Shown one piece after another: positions 34,953 through 44,213 of a DNA stretch of 64,000 nt. Below the pieces are notes generated by a model that saw only the letters and a program-made list of their open reading frames with translations, did not search any database and was not told the DNA's origin. The translations under genes were made by a program, and so were the position numbers. This DNA comes from Ferrimicrobium sp. (GTDB taxonomy: Bacteria; Actinomycetota; Acidimicrobiia; Acidimicrobiales; Acidimicrobiaceae): contig NZ_DAHVNP010000014.1 of NCBI RefSeq assembly GCF_027319265.1, positions 1 through 64,000 of the forward strand, given 5' to 3'. How positions within the stretch are numbered: position 1 is the stretch's first letter; the number at the start of each line of letters is the position of its first letter.

Positions 34953-36203
34953 ATGCAACAACGGTCGCGGCTTCGATCGTTTCCCCACAGTGTCTTTGGA
35001 CTCTATACCGTGGCGGGATTCTATCGCGGTGCCCAAAACATGGCACTCACGACCCTCGCGCTGATCATCAAAGAGGATCTTGGCTATGGAGCAGGAACCA
35101 TCGGCGTGATCTCAGCGCTCTCCGGTATCGTCCTTGTGCTCGTCACCCTCATGATCAGTGCACGCCTCAAGCCAGCGCAACTCGAACGCGCGGTATCAAT
35201 CTCGCTGGTTACACTCGTTCTCGGCTTAGTCATCATCGGCGTGAGTCACTCTATCTACCTCACGGCATTCGCATCCATACTCCTCGGCATCGGCGGAGGC
35301 CTAGGAATGCCGGGGCTTGCCGGCTCAGTGCAGCTTGCCGCGGGCGAAACCTCCTCAAATCCTCAACGAATCCTCGCGATCTACACGCTAGTCTTGAGCA
35401 TCTCACTCGCGATTGGACCGCTTCTCGAGGCTGGCCTCCTCGATGCTACCCATCAAGATGTTCGTTGGCCGTTCTTAGCCTTTGCCATACTTCCACTCCT
35501 TGCCCTCGGCATTATGCTGTCGCGACATCGAGAAGCAATCGCTGCCGCTGCTCGCGCGAGTGCTGCGGGAGGGCCGTCCATCACACCTGTCGCCGATACG
35601 AAGCGAGTACGACTGCTCCAGACTCCGGAGGTCGTCAAAGCCCTTCTCGCACAACTCATGTACGCCGTGCCCTTTGCAGCCCTCACCGTCTTTGGCGCCG
35701 AGGTTGCCCGCGTGACCGATCAGGCCACTGCGGCCCAAGCCCAGCTCGCCTTTACCGTCTTCTTTATCTTCTCGCTCGGCTCCCGTGGACTTGTCGCTTG
35801 GCGATCCCCTATCTACCACAAGGGATTGGCCTATACGGCATCGGGGATCATGACCATTACCGGTCTTACCTTTATCGTTGCCGGCCACTCATTCACCCTC
35901 TTTCTGGTAGGAATGATCATCCTCGGCATCCCGCATGGTTTGATTTTCCCCCTCGCACTTTCTGCGCTGGCGAGTTCTCTACCACCAGATCAGCTACCCC
36001 GTGCAAACTCGTTGTTGATGGGTTCCTCCAACTTCGTTGGTATCATCGCACCACTCATCCTTGGCGTCATCGCCGCCGCTACCACCTATCGATTCATGAT
36101 GGGCACAGTGCTCGCCCCGGTGATCCTGCTCTTCGCCGTCTTTGTCGGCGTCGTCGGCATCATGCGTCTCCGCCACAGCCCCGTCGCCAGATCGACGCCA
36201 TAG
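34953..36203 (+). CDS. MFS transporter
   Basis: A 416-residue membrane protein with about 12 hydrophobic segments and an MFS layout. The N-terminal half has FYRGAQNMALTTLALIIKEDLGYGAGTIGVISALSG and GIGGGLGMPGLAGSV. A cytoplasmic loop follows at about 195-220, then the C-terminal six-helix half with LGIPHGLIFPLALSALASSLPPDQLPRANSL. The substrate is unknown. GGAGG precedes the ATG. It lies upstream of boxR on the same strand, so transport of an aromatic acid such as benzoate is possible but unproven. Confidence 0.8.
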   Translation: MQQRSRLRSFPHSVFGLYTVAGFYRGAQNMALTTLALIIKEDLGYGAGTIGVISALSGIVLVLVTLMISARLKPAQLERAVSISLVTLVLGLVIIGVSHSIYLTAFASILLGIGGGLGMPGLAGSVQLAAGETSSNPQRILAIYTLVLSISLAIGPLLEAGLLDATHQDVRWPFLAFAILPLLALGIMLSRHREAIAAAARASAAGGPSITPVADTKRVRLLQTPEVVKALLAQLMYAVPFAALTVFGAEVARVTDQATAAQAQLAFTVFFIFSLGSRGLVAWRSPIYHKGLAYTASGIMTITGLTFIVAGHSFTLFLVGMIILGIPHGLIFPLALSALASSLPPDQLPRANSLLMGSSNFVGIIAPLILGVIAAATTYRFMMGTVLAPVILLFAVFVGVVGIMRLRHSPVARSTP

Positions 36204-36390: not shown

Positions 36391-37266
36391 GTGGACCTTT
36401 CCCATCCCCAAGGCTCTGAGTACGAACGGATCGTTGCCCAGCTGGCTCACACGCTGCGCCAGGAGCGCAGCCTGCGAGGGCTCTCTCGGTCCGATCTCGC
36501 ACGCCGAGCCCAGCTCTCGGAACGCTATCTGGCCCAGGTCGAGACTGGTCGTGCAAACCCGTCACTGACGGTGCTTACCCGACTGGCCCAAGCCCTCGAC
36601 CTGGGCCTCATCGAGTTGATCGATGTCGCCGCACTCGCCACACCAACCCAGGCGGAATCGCTTATCGAACAACTCAAACGACGGGTCGTTTCCGAGCGAC
36701 ACGGGATCGCTCTGATCGGGTTGCGCGGAGCGGGGAAGACAACTCTCGGTCACTTACTAGCCGCCCAACTCGGCTGGCCTTTCTATCGCCTAACGGAGCT
36801 GATCACCGAACGAACCCAGATGCCCCTCGATGAGCTCTTCTCTCTCGGGGGTGATGCCGCTTTTCGCAGACTTGAACTCGAGACCCTGCAACAACTCGTC
36901 GAGGATGGCGAGAGTCAAATCATCATAGAGATTGGTGGCGGACTGGTCACGAATCAACCGGCCTACCAGCTACTTCGTCGTCATTGGACCACCGTTTGGC
37001 TCTCGACAACGCCAGAGGAACACATGCAACGAGTCATTGCCCAGGGCGACCTACGGCCGATGCACGGCTCCGATCGAGCCATGGAAGAGCTCAGGACTAT
37101 TCTGTACGAACGAACCCCTTTCTATCAAGCAGCCGAGCTCCATCTATCCACTTCGCATCGGAGTGTCGAAACCTCCCTCACGGAACTCGAAGGGCTCATT
37201 GCGAAGTATCTCGGCGTTGGCGACCGCGCCAAAGAAGACAAATCCCCGCATGGGGGAGATGGCTAG
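36391..37266 (+). CDS. boxR: BoxR/BzdR-type benzoyl-CoA-responsive regulator
   Basis: A 291-residue fusion. Residues about 12-70 are a Cro/XRE helix-turn-helix (LRQERSLRGLSRSDLARRAQ, LSERYLAQVETGRANPS). Residues about 105-275 are a shikimate-kinase-like domain with Walker A GLRGAGKTTLGHLLA and IIEIGGGLVTN. This architecture is specific to the BzdR/BoxR family, in which the kinase-like domain binds benzoyl-CoA and relieves repression of benzoate genes. The start is GTG 36391 with a weak ribosome site. Single TGCA tetramers occur upstream at 36305-36308 and 36333-36336. Position directly before the benzoate operon supports the assignment. Confidence 0.88.
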   Translation: MDLSHPQGSEYERIVAQLAHTLRQERSLRGLSRSDLARRAQLSERYLAQVETGRANPSLTVLTRLAQALDLGLIELIDVAALATPTQAESLIEQLKRRVVSERHGIALIGLRGAGKTTLGHLLAAQLGWPFYRLTELITERTQMPLDELFSLGGDAAFRRLELETLQQLVEDGESQIIIEIGGGLVTNQPAYQLLRRHWTTVWLSTTPEEHMQRVIAQGDLRPMHGSDRAMEELRTILYERTPFYQAAELHLSTSHRSVETSLTELEGLIAKYLGVGDRAKEDKSPHGGDG

Positions 37267-37351
37267 CCATCCCGCAGCAGTCGCCAATGCGACCTGCGCG
37301 ATCGATGGGTGGCCGCGCGGTCATTGGCCGCACATCATTGACCACACGTTA

Positions 37352-37379
37352 TTGACCACACAGCCGAAGGCTGCATAAT
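37352..37379 (+). promoter_or_regulatory. Candidate sigma-70 type promoter of the benzoate operon
   Basis: TTGACC (37352-37357), a 16-base spacer and CATAAT (37374-37379) form a reasonable -35/-10 pair before the benzoate-CoA ligase gene. The -35 lies in the second of two direct ATTGACCACAC repeats (37337-37347, 37351-37361; 14-base period). The -10 is inside the first TGCA-N6-TGCA site. Confidence 0.45.
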
Positions 37380-37385
37380 AATGCA
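37372..37385. promoter_or_regulatory. BoxR operator-like site 1 (TGCA-N6-TGCA)
   Basis: TGCATAATAATGCA overlaps the candidate -10 element. TGCA half-sites are the recognised elements of BzdR/BoxR-type regulators. It shares 11 of 14 positions with site 2 (37415-37428) and 11 of 14 with the boxC-upstream site. Repression by blocking RNA polymerase is the expected mode. Confidence 0.55.
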
Positions 37386-37414
37386 TGATCCTGTGGGACT
37401 CTCCCCGCGTGTTT

Positions 37415-37428
37415 TGCAGTATAGTGCA
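37415..37428. promoter_or_regulatory. BoxR operator-like site 2 (TGCA-N6-TGCA)
   Basis: TGCAGTATAGTGCA (within TTGCA...TGCAA, 37414-37429) lies 43 bases, about four helical turns, downstream of site 1 and in the leader of the benzoate-CoA ligase gene. The spacing puts both sites on the same DNA face. Confidence 0.55.
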
Positions 37429-37523
37429 AGTGTGCCGATGCGCCTAAAAAGGTGCCTGTGTGGCATGCCGACCGAGAACGAGTCATCGACGACCGGTGCG
37501 GGCGTGCCCATGAAGGGGGAGTG

Positions 37524-39104
37524 ATGATGCAGGTCCAACAACAAGAGACGATGGCGATCGAAGAGTGGCTAGCCAACCTGCCAAAGAGCTACAACATTGC
37601 AGAGAGTCTGCTCACGACCGCTCGATCACAACCGCTTGGTCGCACAGCGGTCACGGATGCGGACGGTACCTACTCCTATCGAGAGGTTGAAGACCTCGTG
37701 CTCCGTTCTGCCACCGCATTGATGGAGCTCGGCCTTGAGCCTGAGGATCGACTTCTTTTAGTCATCGGCGATACCATTCTCTTCCCTGCTCTCTTCCTCG
37801 GGGCCATCCGAGCTGGCATCGTTCCCATCCCTCTCAACCCGCTCCTGGCCGAAGAGGACTTTCGCTACATCATCGAAGACTCTAGAGTCAAAGCCATCGT
37901 CACCCACGCCCAAGGTGTGGAAAAGATCGAACGGGCGGCGGCTGGGTGTCGACGCGTCAAGTGGATCGAGCGTGACAACGGACTGCGCGGACCGGGGATC
38001 GGAGCCCGCATCCTAGCGGCTTCGCCGTATCAGCAACCTATCGCCACCGTCGCCGACGAGGTCGCCTTCTGGCTGTACTCATCAGGATCGACTGGACGCC
38101 CAAAAGGGGTTCGGCATCTCCACCGCAATGTGGCCGTCACCATCAACTGTTTCGCCCAGCAAGTACTCGGCCTGACCCCTACCGACACGGTCTTCTCTGC
38201 GGCCAAGCTCTTTTTTGCCTATGGCCTTGGCAACGGACTGACCTTTCCCTTCGGCGTTGGAGCAAGCGTCGCCTACCTCAACGAACGGCCAACCCCGGAC
38301 TCCGTGATCGATCTCCTGCAGGCGAGCCACGCGTCGGTCTTCTGCGGCGTGCCGACACTCTTTGCCTCCTTACTCGCAAGCCCTCGCGCACGAGAACTTG
38401 CCGATGTTGGGCTTCGGATCTGCACCTCAGCTGGTGAAGCGTTACCTCCCGAGATCGGGCGCCGCTTCGAAGAACTCACCGGTGCGGCTATTATCGACGG
38501 TCTCGGGTCGACCGAGATGCTCCATATCTTTCTGGCCAACCGTCCCGGCAGTATCCGTTATGGTTCCAGCGGCGTTCCTGTTCCCGGGTATGACGCTCGC
38601 CTCATCGACGACGAAGGGCTAGAGATCGCCACCTCAGGGACGATCGGCGAGCTGGTGGTGCGGGGTTACTCCGCCGCTGATGGCTACTGGAATCAGCGTG
38701 ACAAGTCTCTCGCCACCTTCCGAGGGCATTGGACCCATACCGGCGACAAGTACCTCCGCGATGACGATGGTTACTATTACTATGCTGGTCGATCCGATGA
38801 CATGATGAAGGTCAGTGGCAACTGGGTCTCGCCCTTTGAGGTTGAGTCAGCATTGATCGCCCATCCAAGCGTTCTTGAGGCCGCTGTTGTCCCTTGGAGA
38901 GATGTCGATGATCTGATCAAACCGAAGGCCTACGTCGTTGTCCGTTCGGATGCCGAGCCAACGGATACGCTCGTCTCCGACCTCCAAGGCTTTGTCAAGC
39001 AGCAACTCGCCCCGTGGAAGTACCCTCGATGGATCGAATTCGTGGAAGAACTCCCCAAAACTGCTACCGGTAAGATCCAACGGTTCAAACTCCGCGAGTC
39101 ATGA
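37524..39104 (+). CDS. Benzoate-CoA ligase
   Basis: A 526-residue adenylate-forming ligase of the benzoate-CoA ligase (BadA/BclA) family, which makes benzoyl-CoA from benzoate, ATP and CoA. The A3 motif reads YSSGSTGRPKGV as in the aryl-CoA ligases. AKLFFAYGLGNGLTFPFGVG is the benzoate-family aryl-binding segment. GLGSTEMLHIFLANRPG is the A5 region, and ELPKTATGKIQRFKLR carries the C-terminal catalytic Lys. ATG 37524 or 37527 follows AAGGGGGA (37513-37520). It is the first gene of the box operon, behind two BoxR-like sites. Its stop overlaps the alpha/beta-hydrolase start. Confidence 0.9.
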   Translation: MMQVQQQETMAIEEWLANLPKSYNIAESLLTTARSQPLGRTAVTDADGTYSYREVEDLVLRSATALMELGLEPEDRLLLVIGDTILFPALFLGAIRAGIVPIPLNPLLAEEDFRYIIEDSRVKAIVTHAQGVEKIERAAAGCRRVKWIERDNGLRGPGIGARILAASPYQQPIATVADEVAFWLYSSGSTGRPKGVRHLHRNVAVTINCFAQQVLGLTPTDTVFSAAKLFFAYGLGNGLTFPFGVGASVAYLNERPTPDSVIDLLQASHASVFCGVPTLFASLLASPRARELADVGLRICTSAGEALPPEIGRRFEELTGAAIIDGLGSTEMLHIFLANRPGSIRYGSSGVPVPGYDARLIDDEGLEIATSGTIGELVVRGYSAADGYWNQRDKSLATFRGHWTHTGDKYLRDDDGYYYYAGRSDDMMKVSGNWVSPFEVESALIAHPSVLEAAVVPWRDVDDLIKPKAYVVVRSDAEPTDTLVSDLQGFVKQQLAPWKYPRWIEFVEELPKTATGKIQRFKLRES

Positions 39105-39919
39105 GGACGACGTCAACGATCCAGCATCTAGCCAGCACCCTTGAGGTGGCACACTGGTCACCCAGCCTCGAGTCCCGTGATGGTCCAACTATCTTCCTGC
39201 TTCACGAGGGTCTCGGGTGTGTGGAGATGTGGAAGGACTTCCCCCAGCGACTGGCAGACCGACTTCGGCTGCCCGTCATCGCCTACTCCAGGGCGGGTTA
39301 CGGGGGTTCGAGCACCATCGATCTCCCTCGATCGCTTGACTATATGCAACGCGAGGCGGATGACGTGCTACCCGATCTCCTCCAAGCGCTCTGTGACGGG
39401 CCAAGGGTACTCCTCGGGCACTCCGATGGTGCATCGATCGCCTTGGCCTATGCGGGTGCCCACCACGATCCGCTACTCACCAGTGTTGTCGCGATCGCAC
39501 CACATGTGGTGGTTGAAGCGATCGCCACCGCAGCGATCCAGGGGGCGAAGGAGCAGTTTACTGCCGGTACCCTTGCCTCAAAGCTTGCACGGTATCATCG
39601 CGCAAATCTCACGAGTGCCTTCTGGGGTTGGAACGACGCTTGGCTGGACCCGGACTTTCGTACCTTTTCGATCCTTGATCGACTGGACACCATCGCGGTG
39701 CCCGTTCTCGCCCTGCAGGGAACCGAGGACGAATATGGGACGAGCATGCAACTGGAACTCATCGCGTCAAGCGTCGCCGAGACGACCCTCATCCTCATCC
39801 AAGAGGCCAAACACTCCCCTCATCTCACCCACACCGACCGGGTCTTGGATGCAATCGAACGCTTCCTCGACCAACGGGGCATCCTCGTCCCCAAGGTCAC
39901 CGGGTCGCCACCACGATAA
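39101..39919 (+). CDS. Alpha/beta-hydrolase of the benzoate cluster
   Basis: A 272-residue alpha/beta-hydrolase fold protein. Visible elements are the HEGLGCVEMWKDFP oxyanion loop, nucleophile Ser in LLGHSDGASIAL (about 107-118), acid in LQGTEDEYG (about 206) and catalytic His in EAKHSPHLTH (about 232). Similar hydrolases sit in box and bzd clusters of other bacteria and may act on a ring-cleavage lactone or a CoA ester; the exact reaction is not established. The ATG at 39101 overlaps the ligase stop (ATGA). Confidence 0.75.
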   Translation: MRTTSTIQHLASTLEVAHWSPSLESRDGPTIFLLHEGLGCVEMWKDFPQRLADRLRLPVIAYSRAGYGGSSTIDLPRSLDYMQREADDVLPDLLQALCDGPRVLLGHSDGASIALAYAGAHHDPLLTSVVAIAPHVVVEAIATAAIQGAKEQFTAGTLASKLARYHRANLTSAFWGWNDAWLDPDFRTFSILDRLDTIAVPVLALQGTEDEYGTSMQLELIASSVAETTLILIQEAKHSPHLTHTDRVLDAIERFLDQRGILVPKVTGSPPR

Positions 39920-39933
39920 TGCATTATATTGCC
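39916..39933. promoter_or_regulatory. BoxR operator-like site upstream of boxC
   Basis: ATAATGCATTAT (39916-39927) is a perfect palindrome centred on TGCA. With the next bases it forms TGCA-N6-TGCC (39920-39933), matching site 1 at 11 of 14 positions. TTGCCG (39929-39934), 16 bases, then TATAAC (39951-39956) could be a promoter for boxC. The site would cover its -35. Confidence 0.45.
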
Positions 39934-39979
39934 GTCTTTCTAGTTGGAAATATAACTATACTGCATCATAGGAGGAACG

Positions 39980-41587
39980 ATGATTGACCTACGCACGAAC
40001 CCTGATCGTTATCACCACTGGACACTCAAACTCGGCGACCAGAGCGCAGAGCTCATCCTTGATGTCGATGAGCACAAGACGATCGGCACCGGCTACCAGC
40101 TGAAAATGAACTCGTACGATTTGGGAGTTGATATCGAGCTCGCCGACGCCCTGGAGCGACTGCGGCTCACCTACCCCCAGATCACCACGGTGCTGGTCCG
40201 CTCAGGGAAGGACCGCGTCTTCTGTGCAGGAGCCAACATCGGCATGTTGGCTGGGGCTACCCATCAGCACAAAGTCAACTTCTGTAAGTTCACCAACGAA
40301 ACGCGGCTTTTTATGGAAGGGGCTCCTGCGCACTTCATCGCAGTAGTCGAAGGCACCGCAGCTGGAGGTGGCTATGAACTGGCACTGAGCTGTGACACGA
40401 TCGTACTCGTCGATGACGGATCGGCGTCTGTCTCACTCCCAGAGGTTGCGCTGCTCGCAGTGCTTCCCGGGACGGGAGGGTTGACGCGGTTGACTGACAA
40501 ACGCAATCTACGTCGTGATCGGGCCGATTACTTCTGCACCCTTGAAGAGGGTATCAGTGGCCAACGAGCTCTCGATTGGCAGCTGGTCGACCATTTGGTG
40601 CCCCGTTCGGGCCTCGATCGACTCCTCGACAAACTTGTGACCTCCCACGAACGTATCGACCCACCACCTGGACCCGGCATCGCTTTAAACGACATCGATC
40701 GCGAGCTCACCGACGATACAATCAGGTATCGTCACCTCCAAGCTGACATCGACCGGAACAACGGCGTCGTGACTATCGAGATCCTCGGCCCAACGGAGCT
40801 TCCGGCCTCCTCCGCCGAGCTCCTCGGCCAAGGCGATGCCTCATGGTTGATCGCAGCGGCACGAGAGCTCAACGACCTACTCTGCCACTTACGCTTCAAC
40901 GAGGCAACAGTTGGAACACTGCTCATCAAGAGCCACGGAGATCTCGCTCTCGCCCAGCGCTACTCCGAGCTCCTTCTGCAGTGGCGCGGCGAGTGGATCG
41001 TCGACGAGGGTCTCGCCCTCTGGCAGCGGACCCTTGCTCGCCTCGACCTGACCTCTCGATCCATCATGTCTTCGATTGACGATGCCAGCTGCTTTGCGGG
41101 ACCCTTGGCGGAACTCATCTTTGCTTCAGATCGCTCGTACTTCCTCGATAATGGGGAGCCCGGACTCGTTCTGAATCGCCTCAACTTCGAGGCCTTCCCA
41201 ATGATGAATGGACTTTCACGACTCGCTACCCGCTTCTGGGGTCACCCGGAACAACTTGGCGCGCTGGAGTCACTCATCAACCAACCGCTCGATGCCATCG
41301 CCGCTCAAGACAAGGGTCTGGTCACCTTCACACCAGATACATACGATTGGGAGGATGAGCTACGCCTCGCCCTTGACGGGCGCAACGCCTTCTCACCGGA
41401 TGCGCTCACTGCCATGGAGGCGAACCTGCGTTTTGCCGGCCCGGAAAGCATGGCGACCAAAATCTTCGGACGTCTCAGCGCATGGCAAAACTGGGTCTTC
41501 AATCGTCCGAATGCCGTTGGCCCTGAAGGAGCGCTGCAACGGTATGGGACCGGGCTCACCACTAACTTCCAACGAGAAAGGATCTAA
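39980..41587 (+). CDS. boxC: 2,3-Epoxybenzoyl-CoA dihydrolase
   Basis: A 535-residue BoxC, a large crotonase-related enzyme that opens the epoxide ring of 2,3-epoxybenzoyl-CoA to 3,4-dehydroadipyl-CoA semialdehyde and formate. Family features are YQLKMNSYDLGVDIELADALERLR, VLVRSGKDRVFCAGANIGML, the crotonase Glu-containing GTAAGGGYELALSCD and LPEVALLAVLPGTGGLTRLTDKR. The C-terminal half has YFLDNGEPGLVLNRLNFEAFPMMNGLSRL. The size fits the family (about 550). A strong AGGAGG precedes ATG 39980. It has its own candidate promoter and operator. Confidence 0.92.
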   Translation: MIDLRTNPDRYHHWTLKLGDQSAELILDVDEHKTIGTGYQLKMNSYDLGVDIELADALERLRLTYPQITTVLVRSGKDRVFCAGANIGMLAGATHQHKVNFCKFTNETRLFMEGAPAHFIAVVEGTAAGGGYELALSCDTIVLVDDGSASVSLPEVALLAVLPGTGGLTRLTDKRNLRRDRADYFCTLEEGISGQRALDWQLVDHLVPRSGLDRLLDKLVTSHERIDPPPGPGIALNDIDRELTDDTIRYRHLQADIDRNNGVVTIEILGPTELPASSAELLGQGDASWLIAAARELNDLLCHLRFNEATVGTLLIKSHGDLALAQRYSELLLQWRGEWIVDEGLALWQRTLARLDLTSRSIMSSIDDASCFAGPLAELIFASDRSYFLDNGEPGLVLNRLNFEAFPMMNGLSRLATRFWGHPEQLGALESLINQPLDAIAAQDKGLVTFTPDTYDWEDELRLALDGRNAFSPDALTAMEANLRFAGPESMATKIFGRLSAWQNWVFNRPNAVGPEGALQRYGTGLTTNFQRERI

Positions 41588-41589
41588 CC

Positions 41590-43029
41590 ATGGAACTCAT
41601 CGACTACGACTCACAAATCCCCAACAACGTCGCGCTGGCAAGCGACGAGCGTCTCAAGCGAGCCCTCGAACAGTGGCACCCTGGCTACCTGAACTGGTGG
41701 AACCAGATGGGACCTAGCGGATTCGCAGAATCAGAGGTATACCTGCGCACCGCTACCGGGGTCGACCCGAAAGGTTGGGCACAGTTCCATTACGTCAAGA
41801 TGCCAGAGTATCGCTGGGGCATCTTCTTGGCCCCTGGTGATCCCGATCGGAGAATCGGCTTCGGCGAACATATCGGCGAGCCGGTGTGGCAGGAGGTTCC
41901 TGGCGAGTATCGAGCCATGCTGCGTCGCCTCCTCGTGGTGCAGGGCGACACTGAACCCGCCAGCGTCGAGCAACAACGTCACCTGGGAGCCACTGCACCC
42001 TCCCTCTACGATCTCCGCAATCTCTTCCAGGTCAACGTCGAGGAGGGTCGCCATCTCTGGGCAATGGTCTACCTGCTTCAGCGGTATTTTGGCCGCGACG
42101 GTAGGGAGGAGGCTGAGGCATTGCTGCATCGTCGCTCGGGAGACGAGGACCGTCCACGAATGCTCGGAGCCTTCAATGAGGATACCCCCGATTGGCTCTC
42201 CTTCTTCATGTTCACCTTCTTCACTGACCGGGACGGCAAGTATCAACTCGAGGCTCTTGCCCAATCAGGCTTCGATCCCCTGGCACGAACCACTCGCTTC
42301 ATGTTGACCGAAGAGGCTCATCACATGTTCGTCGGGGAGAGTGGCATCGGCCGCGTGATCGATGCAACCCTGACAACCATGAAGGCCGCGGGTATCGAAG
42401 ACCCCTACGATGTCGACCGAATCCGCACCCTTGGCGTCATCGACCTGCCGACCCTGCAACGCTATCTCAACTTTCACTTCTCGGTGAGCCTCGATCTCTT
42501 TGGTGCAGAAGGCTCCTCAAATGCAGCAAATGCCTTTGCCTCAGGACTGAAGGGCCGATTCAATGAGCATAAGATCACCGATGACCACCAGCTCGTCAGC
42601 GCGACCTATCCGGTACTACGACTCCAAGGTGGGGCGATCATTGCCCGCGACGAACCAGCGCTGACCGTCTTGAATGCACGCCTACGCGATGATTACGCCA
42701 ACGACTGCGCCAACGGTGTCAAGCGTTGGAACAAGGCCATTGAGAAGTCAGGCATCCAATTTCAACTCACCCTACCCCATCTCGGATTTCATCGCCGTGT
42801 CGGAGAGTTTCAGTCCCAACCGATCGATCCGGCGGGCAACGTGGTAACGGACCATACCTTCGAGCAGGTGACCCTGTCACACCTGCCAAACGCCACCGAT
42901 CGCGCCTTTATCAACTCCTTGATGCAGCCCGTCTATGAGCCAGGCAACTATGCGCGTTGGATCGCTCCACCAAAGGTTGCCATCGACAACAAGCCGGGGG
43001 ATTTCGAGTTCGTCCGCCTCCACGCATGA
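41590..43029 (+). CDS. boxB: Benzoyl-CoA 2,3-epoxidase, oxygenase subunit
   Basis: A 479-residue class I di-iron epoxidase subunit. The iron-ligand helices appear as FQVNVEEGRHLWAMVYLLQRYFG (about 146-168) and FMLTEEAHHMFVGESGIGRV (about 237-256), each an E-x-x-H type pair, consistent with BoxB. It introduces one oxygen atom into the aromatic ring of benzoyl-CoA using electrons from BoxA. It follows boxC by two bases and overlaps boxA at ATGA, so boxCBA is one transcript. Length matches the family. Confidence 0.93.
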   Translation: MELIDYDSQIPNNVALASDERLKRALEQWHPGYLNWWNQMGPSGFAESEVYLRTATGVDPKGWAQFHYVKMPEYRWGIFLAPGDPDRRIGFGEHIGEPVWQEVPGEYRAMLRRLLVVQGDTEPASVEQQRHLGATAPSLYDLRNLFQVNVEEGRHLWAMVYLLQRYFGRDGREEAEALLHRRSGDEDRPRMLGAFNEDTPDWLSFFMFTFFTDRDGKYQLEALAQSGFDPLARTTRFMLTEEAHHMFVGESGIGRVIDATLTTMKAAGIEDPYDVDRIRTLGVIDLPTLQRYLNFHFSVSLDLFGAEGSSNAANAFASGLKGRFNEHKITDDHQLVSATYPVLRLQGGAIIARDEPALTVLNARLRDDYANDCANGVKRWNKAIEKSGIQFQLTLPHLGFHRRVGEFQSQPIDPAGNVVTDHTFEQVTLSHLPNATDRAFINSLMQPVYEPGNYARWIAPPKVAIDNKPGDFEFVRLHA

Positions 43030-44213
43030 TTACCTCCACGAGCTTGCTTAGACAACATCTGATCGACCCAGAGGTCTGCATACGCTGCAACACCTGCGAG
43101 GAGACCTGTCCGATCGGCGCCATCACCCACAACGATGACAACTACGTCGTCGACCCAGCGATCTGTGCCTCCTGCGGAGATTGTCTTGGTCCCTGCCCGA
43201 CCGGAGCTATCGACTCGTGGCGGATCGTGACGACGCCGCATTCGATCGATGATCAGCTCGGCTGGGAGCTCTTGCCCGAGGACACTGGCGAGATCTTCGA
43301 GTCAGCCCCAGCAGGTGACGATGAGGCCCGAGCACTTCTGGAGGTTGCCCACCAAGGAGCACCGAGGGCGGTCGCCCCAAAGAGCGCCACTGTACCTCGT
43401 CTCAACATCGCCACTCGACACTCCCCCATCACCGCCACCGTCATGGGCAACTACCGGATCACTGACGCACAGAGCGAGTCTGACGTCCACCATCTCGTTC
43501 TCGACCTTGGCGGCCACGCCTTCCCGATTCTTGAAGGCCAGAGTGTAGGTGTTCTGCCCCCTTCGAGTCCCGACATGATGCGACCGGTACTCCGGCTCTA
43601 CTCGGTCTCGTCACCTCGTGATGGTGAACGACCGGGCCACAACAATCTTGCACTCACCGTCAAGCGAGTGATGAACAATGGAAAGGGTCAGCCTGGACTC
43701 GCCTCGAACTATCTGTGCGATCTTGTCAAAGGCGATCAAGTAGCCCTCGTTGGCCCCTTTGGCGACACCTTCCTCATGCCAACCGATCCAGCGAGCAACC
43801 TCATCATGATCTGTACCGGCACCGGTTCTGCTCCCTTTCGTGCGATGACCGAGTTTCACCGTCGCCACCTCCCCTCTGGGCCAGGCAAACTGCTGCTGTT
43901 TTTCGGAGCTCGCACGCGGTCGGAACTTCCTTATTTTGGTCCACTGATGAAGCTCGATCGTACGCTGATTGACATCGAGCTCTGTCTCTCAAGAGAAGAC
44001 GAACTGCCAGCTCGACATGTCCAGGATGGTCTGCGTGAACGAATCATGGACGTTGTCGATCTCCTTGGACACGATGCTACCCATCTCTACCTGTGTGGAG
44101 TCAAGGGGATGGAGGAATCGGTCCGGAGTGTCCTGACCGAGTCGATCCCAGATTGGGCAGCAAGGGAGGTGCAGCTCCTCCAGGAGGGCCGTCTCCATAT
44201 TGAAACCTACTGA
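43026..44213 (+). CDS. boxA: Benzoyl-CoA 2,3-epoxidase, reductase subunit
   Basis: A 395-residue iron-sulfur flavoprotein. Residues 18-28 (Cys18, 21, 24, 28) and 47-57 (Cys47, 50, 53, 57) are two regular [4Fe-4S] ferredoxin motifs. The rest is a ferredoxin-NADP reductase module with RPVLRLYSVSSPRDGE (FAD) and MICTGTGSAPFRAMTEF (NADPH). It passes electrons from NADPH to BoxB. The ATG at 43026 overlaps the boxB stop; the longer upstream frame is over boxB. It ends the cluster. No boxD aldehyde dehydrogenase follows. Confidence 0.93.
   Translation: MITSTSLLRQHLIDPEVCIRCNTCEETCPIGAITHNDDNYVVDPAICASCGDCLGPCPTGAIDSWRIVTTPHSIDDQLGWELLPEDTGEIFESAPAGDDEARALLEVAHQGAPRAVAPKSATVPRLNIATRHSPITATVMGNYRITDAQSESDVHHLVLDLGGHAFPILEGQSVGVLPPSSPDMMRPVLRLYSVSSPRDGERPGHNNLALTVKRVMNNGKGQPGLASNYLCDLVKGDQVALVGPFGDTFLMPTDPASNLIMICTGTGSAPFRAMTEFHRRHLPSGPGKLLLFFGARTRSELPYFGPLMKLDRTLIDIELCLSREDELPARHVQDGLRERIMDVVDLLGHDATHLYLCGVKGMEESVRSVLTESIPDWAAREVQLLQEGRLHIETY

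Follow-up and report, generated by a model that had tools for sequence, protein, structure and literature searches.

Paired candidate BoxR operators at two predicted box-pathway promoters in a Ferrimicrobium genome

The box-pathway genes of Ferrimicrobium sp. appear to be transcribed from two promoters where likely BoxR sites occur in pairs, both members of a pair facing the same side of the helix, and we think it quite likely that BoxR represses both cooperatively and is relieved by an aromatic CoA thioester. The stretch analyzed (hereafter, the window; 64,000 nucleotides, contig NZ_DAHVNP010000014.1) belongs to a draft genome of 2.88 Mb, and the genomes with which it was compared are likewise drafts. 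The genome has three WhiB genes, a family that among 14 control genomes was matched in Corynebacterium glutamicum alone, as fits an actinobacterium. Its box genes run in the order boxR-bclA-alpha/beta hydrolase-boxC-boxB-boxA, all on the plus strand:

36391–37266, plus strand: boxR; clears the curated family model NCBIfam NF006015 (273.3 bits, cut-off 204), with Pfam SKI, HTH_3 and HTH_31
37524–39104 (start at 37524 or 37527), plus strand: bclA, benzoate-CoA ligase (TIGR02262, 663 bits)
39101–39919, plus strand: alpha/beta hydrolase (Pfam Abhydrolase)
39980–41587, plus strand: boxC (TIGR03222, 686.9 bits, under the curated cut-off of 712.3)
41590–43029, plus strand: boxB (TIGR03225, 852.7 bits)
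42957–44213, plus strand: boxA (TIGR03224, 513.6 bits)

The true start of boxA is probably later than that of its open frame at 42957. The hydrolase is the probable lactonase of the pathway, and box clusters are described as including a lactonase gene in passages of PMC6449761. Upstream of boxR lies an MFS transporter gene (34953–36203) that possibly serves benzoate; none of the eight best matches to the operator matrix (see below) in the window stands before it.

The elements on which the proposed control rests lie in the gaps before bclA and boxC:

37372–37385, plus strand: candidate BoxR operator site 1, TGCATAATAATGCA
37415–37428, plus strand: candidate BoxR operator site 2, TGCAGTATAGTGCA
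37429–37435, plus strand: AGTGTGC, conserved flank after site 2 (7/7 genomes, in G002 with a one-base insertion)
39920–39933, plus strand: candidate BoxR operator site 3, TGCATTATATTGCC, before boxC
39952–39965, plus strand: half-operator ATAACTATACTGCA over a -10-like TATACT (39957–39962)

A preliminary description of this DNA had placed two TGCA-N6-TGCA sites, 43 bases or about four helical turns apart, some 100 bases beyond the end of the regulator gene, and a third before boxC. These sites are present at the positions given above, site 1 begins about 105 bases beyond the end of boxR at 37266, and the 43-bp distance recurs in all seven genomes of the genus, including the one under study. 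When the seven were aligned on site 2, mean pairwise identity was 0.92 in site 1 and 0.90 in site 2 against 0.40 in the 29-bp spacer between them; it was 0.75 in the ten bases following site 2, 0.34 beyond these and 0.27 upstream of the pair. Site 2 agrees at 13/14 positions with the core of the palindrome ATGCACTATAGTGCAT, reported as the betaproteobacterial BoxR/BzdR motif (PMC6449761), and reads GGCA at one end in one of the seven genomes.

The half-operator before boxC was absent from the preliminary description. It lies 32 bp from site 3 in 6/6 genomes (the contig of the seventh ends short of it), and its AANTATACTGCA is found in all six with a mean pairwise identity of 0.95. Identity over this gap is 0.82 for site 3, 0.88 for the half-site ATAACTATACTGCA and 0.36 for the 18-bp spacer. 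The operator-matrix matches listed for the window do not include the half-site. Multiple sites at whole-turn spacing, as expected of operators of this type, are thus present before both genes (43 bp, 7/7; 32 bp to the half-site, 6/6).

The preliminary description had counted it against the operators if the motif were as frequent as chance across the genome. This is nearly so for bare TGCA-N6-TGCA, whereas the motif with an A/T core is specific, so it is the A/T core that makes the difference. The number of bare matches in the window, two, was reached by 25/100 shuffles; the whole genome has 29, compared with 20 for a reversed control, and the seven genus genomes together 221, compared with 141 (1.6-fold). 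With its A/T core the motif, TGCANNATANTGCM, has four strand-matches in the window, representing three sites, one of which matches on either strand, and none of 100 shuffles reached four; the expectation of 0.03 is partly circular, as the consensus was derived from those very sites. Exact TGCANTATANTGCA occurs six times in the seven genomes, always within the box locus, and allowing one mismatch yields 31 sites, 17 of them in the box locus, compared with four in total for the reversed control. TGCA-N6-TGCA with an A/T core, as expected of such operators, is present.

Of the 14 one-mismatch sites outside the box locus, 11 fall inside open frames of at least 100 amino acids, leaving three (L123, L125 and L130). 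At L123:2576–2589 (G000:C31), TGCACTATATTGGA stands ~70–80 bp before an E1-dehydrogenase gene. L123, L124 and L125 are one site in three close genomes whose surrounding DNA is 92% identical throughout, so its conservation proves nothing. TGCAATATTATGCA lies in a gap in a single genome (L130:2727–2740, G003:C10), ~60 bp ahead of an open frame of 126 aa that has no Pfam match. Upstream of boxR itself, the alignment of the seven genus genomes contains no TGCA-N6-TGCA, so we make no claim of autoregulation; a CTAA..GT..GTGCA-like stretch is shared there by five of the seven, as judged by eye.

Full-length BoxR was found in 7/7 genus genomes among 60 genomes compared (own included). The other six proteins are 69–93% identical to that of the window, and the remaining matches among the 60 cover only part of the protein, in most cases a single one of its two domains. 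In wider searches, in some of which at most 4–6 candidates per genome were scored, BoxB was found in at least 32/296 genomes of the class and at least 4/396 of the phylum (own genome included, draws overlapping), and BoxR in at least 3/395 of the class, all belonging to the genus, and at least 1/396 of the phylum, namely the genome itself. Among the 33 distinct box-bearing genomes besides the one studied, the congener G002 was alone in having a BoxR match, and none of the other 32 showed a full-length BoxR.

The 32 box loci of these BoxR-less genomes (513,433 bases) contain two TGCA-N6-TGCA, both without an A/T core and away from every box-gene start that could be located. Ten of the loci end early at contig ends, and a bclA-like ligase gene is seen in 20 while boxC is seen in all 32, so that some ligase promoters are out of view. 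With a matrix built solely from the genus's 20 sites, the median of their best scores was 5.15 and the highest 13.4, the latter far from box genes, compared with 20.4–22.7 for the three sites of the window. Weak matches (4.2–7.9) within ~150 bp before boxC in five of the 32 (L090, L092, L093, L096 and L105) speak against this pattern, although they may be chance matches in A/T-richer gaps.

The same matrix was carried over to loci outside the genus. In 5/5 outside loci having boxR together with box or ligase genes, from one Zoogloeaceae bacterium, three acidobacterial MAGs and Mycetohabitans rhizoxinica, its top match lies beside boxR; L035 was left out, only 25 residues being matched. Two very similar loci (L032 and L034) were counted once in a shuffle test, which leaves four independent loci, and among symmetric column shuffles of the matrix, one in 1000 reached 4/4, with intervals that were drawn after the matches were known. 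No matrix site was found beside a BoxR-like gene of Methylobacterium bullatum (L138), which has no box genes in the fetched stretch. The acidobacterial boxR-boxC gaps each hold a degenerate operator-like pair spaced by 40 bp (L032:6857–6910 and L034:6892–6945); in L033 the spacing of the operator-like pair is 33 bp.

These comparisons bear on whether the sites could be mere -10 elements, or the sites of another regulator, with TGCA ends that arose by chance. Across the genome, bare TGCA-N6-TGCA exceeds chance by little, and the cores resemble -10 hexamers, as such an origin would predict. It would leave unexplained that the TGCA ends are kept at the 43-bp spacing, that the 32 BoxR-less box loci are without a strong site and that the matrix transfers to other phyla having BoxR, and we judge it very improbable. 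Given the specificity of the A/T-cored motif, its conservation, its co-occurrence with BoxR and the transfer of the matrix, the sites are very probably BoxR operators, and the earlier suggestion of BoxR-type operators ahead of the benzoate-CoA ligase gene, with a spacing near four turns and a third site ahead of boxC, is backed by the comparison of sequences.

The promoter elements proposed earlier fared less well. They and further elements examined here involve:

37322–37363, plus strand: three 14-bp direct repeats, (C/T)ATTG(A/G)CC(A/G)CAC.., which include TTGACC
37440–37455, plus strand: leader hairpin of six pairs with a 4-base loop (97.5% of 40 cells paired)

A promoter scan returned TTGACC-16-CATAAT at 37352–37379, the sole promoter in the window. 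The preliminary description had set the -35 of a candidate promoter in one of two direct ATTGACCACAC repeats and its -10 across site 1. Repeats do exist, as three 14-bp units and not two; they occur in two close genomes only, so a -35 within them is not conserved. The closest relative (G004) has similar 15-bp repeats, while visual inspection showed none in the remaining five, and the units are perhaps a recent local duplication. TTGACC was consequently dropped as a -35, not being conserved. A -10-like hexamer does overlap site 1, as claimed, but the one kept in 7/7 genomes is [AG]ATAAT at 37377–37382 (hereafter, P1) and not CATAAT at 37374–37379.

Site 2 carries a -10-like hexamer of its own, TATAGT at 37420–37425 (hereafter, P2); TATnnT followed by AAGTGTGC is kept in 7/7 genomes, and TATACT of the half-site before boxC is in the same register as TATAGT of site 2. 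No -35 at a fixed place was found at the bclA or boxC promoter across the genus genomes. The best -35-like hexamers, compared with TTGACA over spacers of 15–20, stand at varying distances and match 28/42 letters for P1 and 22/42 for P2 (seven genomes), and 15/36 for the boxC promoter. The -10-like hexamers thus lie within the sites, a candidate overlap of operator and core promoter with no fixed -35. Our slight preference for the main promoter of bclA is P2, whose predicted start is near 37432, because the boxC half-site has TATACT in the same register and the flank of site 2 is conserved; AGTGTGC (37429–37435) is a possible transcript start region. Against P2, the -35-like hexamers of P1 are closer to TTGACA.

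Two tandem promoters could themselves account for the 43-bp spacing, in which case BoxR would bind each site independently and act by simple blocking, with neither looping nor cooperativity, and the fixed spacing might result from the layout of the promoters and not from a loop. Sites 1 and 2 each have a -10-like hexamer, the plus-strand ATAAT of site 1 is kept in 7/7 genomes though the operator palindrome would not require it, and P1 alone was found by the promoter scan of the window. Whole-turn spacing is, however, seen again before boxC (32 bp), and for BzdR both cooperative binding and wrapping of DNA are reported (PMC6678401). We regard independent binding as a real possibility that falls somewhat short of probable.

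Control could instead be exerted chiefly in the mRNA leader, through the hairpin at 37440–37455 or through a terminator-like stem (37392–37409, with a short T-rich tail) that the scan placed between sites 1 and 2. Pairing in the hairpin (97.5%, compared with a shuffle mean of 84.5%) and its covariation score were each reached by 0/500 shuffles, and sliding it by 1–3 columns lowered pairing to 27–68%. The count of pairs with two-sided changes (3/6) is unexceptional, being reached by 82/500 shuffles; an Rfam search of 37200–37600 found nothing up to E 5, the predicted fold of the leader is no more stable than those of shuffled sequences (z -0.61), the hairpin lacks a T-run behind it, and the stem at 37392–37409 sits in the non-conserved spacer (0.40). 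Leader-based control therefore seems hardly credible as the main mechanism. The hairpin, just past the presumed P2 start, may steady the mRNA end, and the stem could act on read-through from boxR or on P1 transcripts.

Under the preferred reading of cooperative repression at paired operators, sites 1 and 2 before bclA (43 bp, ~four turns) and site 3 and the half-site before boxC (32 bp, ~three turns) would each lie on one helix face, the downstream member of each pair covering a -10-like TATA(G/C)T in the same register. On the downstream member, a BoxR dimer would block RNA polymerase, and a second dimer on the upstream site would bend or wrap the DNA so that binding becomes cooperative. Without benzoate the box genes would be off. 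An aromatic CoA thioester formed by the ligase, most likely benzoyl-CoA, would bind to the shikimate-kinase-like domain and cause BoxR to release the DNA. The sites, their fixed spacing and their tie to BoxR come from the comparison of genomes; from these we infer binding and repression, use of the -10 hexamers, cooperativity or looping, and relief by benzoyl-CoA as the inducer.

The protein has an XRE helix-turn-helix at its N-terminus (Pfam HTH_3 and HTH_31) and a shikimate-kinase-like domain at its C-terminus (SKI, E 1.5e-33) in which the Walker A motif GLRGAGKTTLG is kept, and its gene adjoins the box genes. SERYLAQ(V/L)E, which we take as the recognition helix from its place in the domain, is shared with the proteins of L031–L033 and near-identical in those of L137 and L138. 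The linker between the domains is ~20 residues shorter in 7/7 genus BoxRs than in outside BoxR-type proteins (four in one alignment, five in another), so that the genus proteins lack the linker of about 40 residues reported for BzdR (residues 91–130; PMC3602430). Since that length is a described property and no stated rule of membership, we keep the protein among BoxR/BzdR as a short-linker form. In addition, all seven have RLT at the position of DSD in E. coli shikimate kinase I, both metal-site aspartates being replaced (by R and T), and five outside BoxR-type proteins read ELD or ELN there.

The short linker and lost aspartates mean that the inducer response of this BoxR may differ, as passages of PMC3602430 report that the BzdR linker (91–130) passes on the inducer signal and that a chimera without it was uninduced. 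BoxR might then bind the sites and answer to another effector, or couple it differently, through its short linker and changed kinase pocket; the ~20 missing residues and RLT in 7/7 genus BoxRs, where outside proteins have ELD/ELN, fit this. We consider it unlikely, because the controlled genes make and consume benzoyl-CoA, Walker A is kept, and a BzdR-shikimate kinase chimera reportedly kept its benzoyl-CoA response after losing one such aspartate (PMC3602430). Relief of this BoxR by benzoyl-CoA is likely, though it should not simply be carried over from BzdR. More speculatively, the genus may have taken up BoxR with its operator code and left the DNA side nearly unchanged while the linker was cut by about half and the metal-site aspartates were lost, so that inducer coupling takes another route than the BzdR linker mechanism, which the geometry of the paired DNA sites perhaps replaces; uptake is suggested by the distribution of BoxR, and the proposal as a whole is rather doubtful.

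Compared with published systems, as far as the cited passages describe them, the arrangement resembles BzdR and the PN promoter of Azoarcus sp. CIB in having TGCA-N6-TGCA (there OR2 and OR3; PMC6678401), an operator over the core promoter (here a candidate overlap), a further operator upstream and a regulator gene directly upstream of the operon. At PN, the core-promoter operator OR1 is reported to be enough for repression while two upstream operators are needed for release, and atomic force microscopy was consistent with DNA looping round four to five BzdR dimers (PMC6678401). PN differs in its three operator regions, a long OR1 with TGCA-N15-TGCA, an FNR/CRP-type activator site and its anaerobic genes, whereas here there are two sites per promoter, aerobic box genes and a short-linker regulator in a member of the Actinomycetota. 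The motif ATGCACTATAGTGCAT, multiple sites mainly 3–5 turns apart, and box and ligase genes as targets are shared with the betaproteobacterial BoxR regulon (PMC6449761). The betaproteobacterial clusters are divergent, while boxR-bclA-hydrolase-boxC-boxB-boxA here share one direction, and further sites precede boxC. In the Acidobacteria and Mycetohabitans clusters (L032–L034 and L137), as here, boxR adjoins boxC and boxB and related sites flank boxR, but these sites are mostly more degenerate (top scores 14.2–21.0, compared with 20.4–22.7 here) and the BoxR linker is longer.

The motif and its whole-turn spacing are already published for Betaproteobacteria, and the finding is that of a known system in another phylum. 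Among the matches listed in the open-licence literature there was no published account of BoxR operators outside Proteobacteria; one listed paper, on uncultured actinobacteria, names boxB (PMC12008989). Overall, the switch is for the most part ordinary and well conserved; what sets it apart is its shortened repressor. It would extend the betaproteobacterial repressor-operator code to Actinomycetota and, by the transferred matrix, to Acidobacteria, and it indicates that the operator code and whole-turn spacing outlast the surrounding DNA. The short-linker BoxR may serve as a natural test of how the linker relays the benzoyl-CoA signal.
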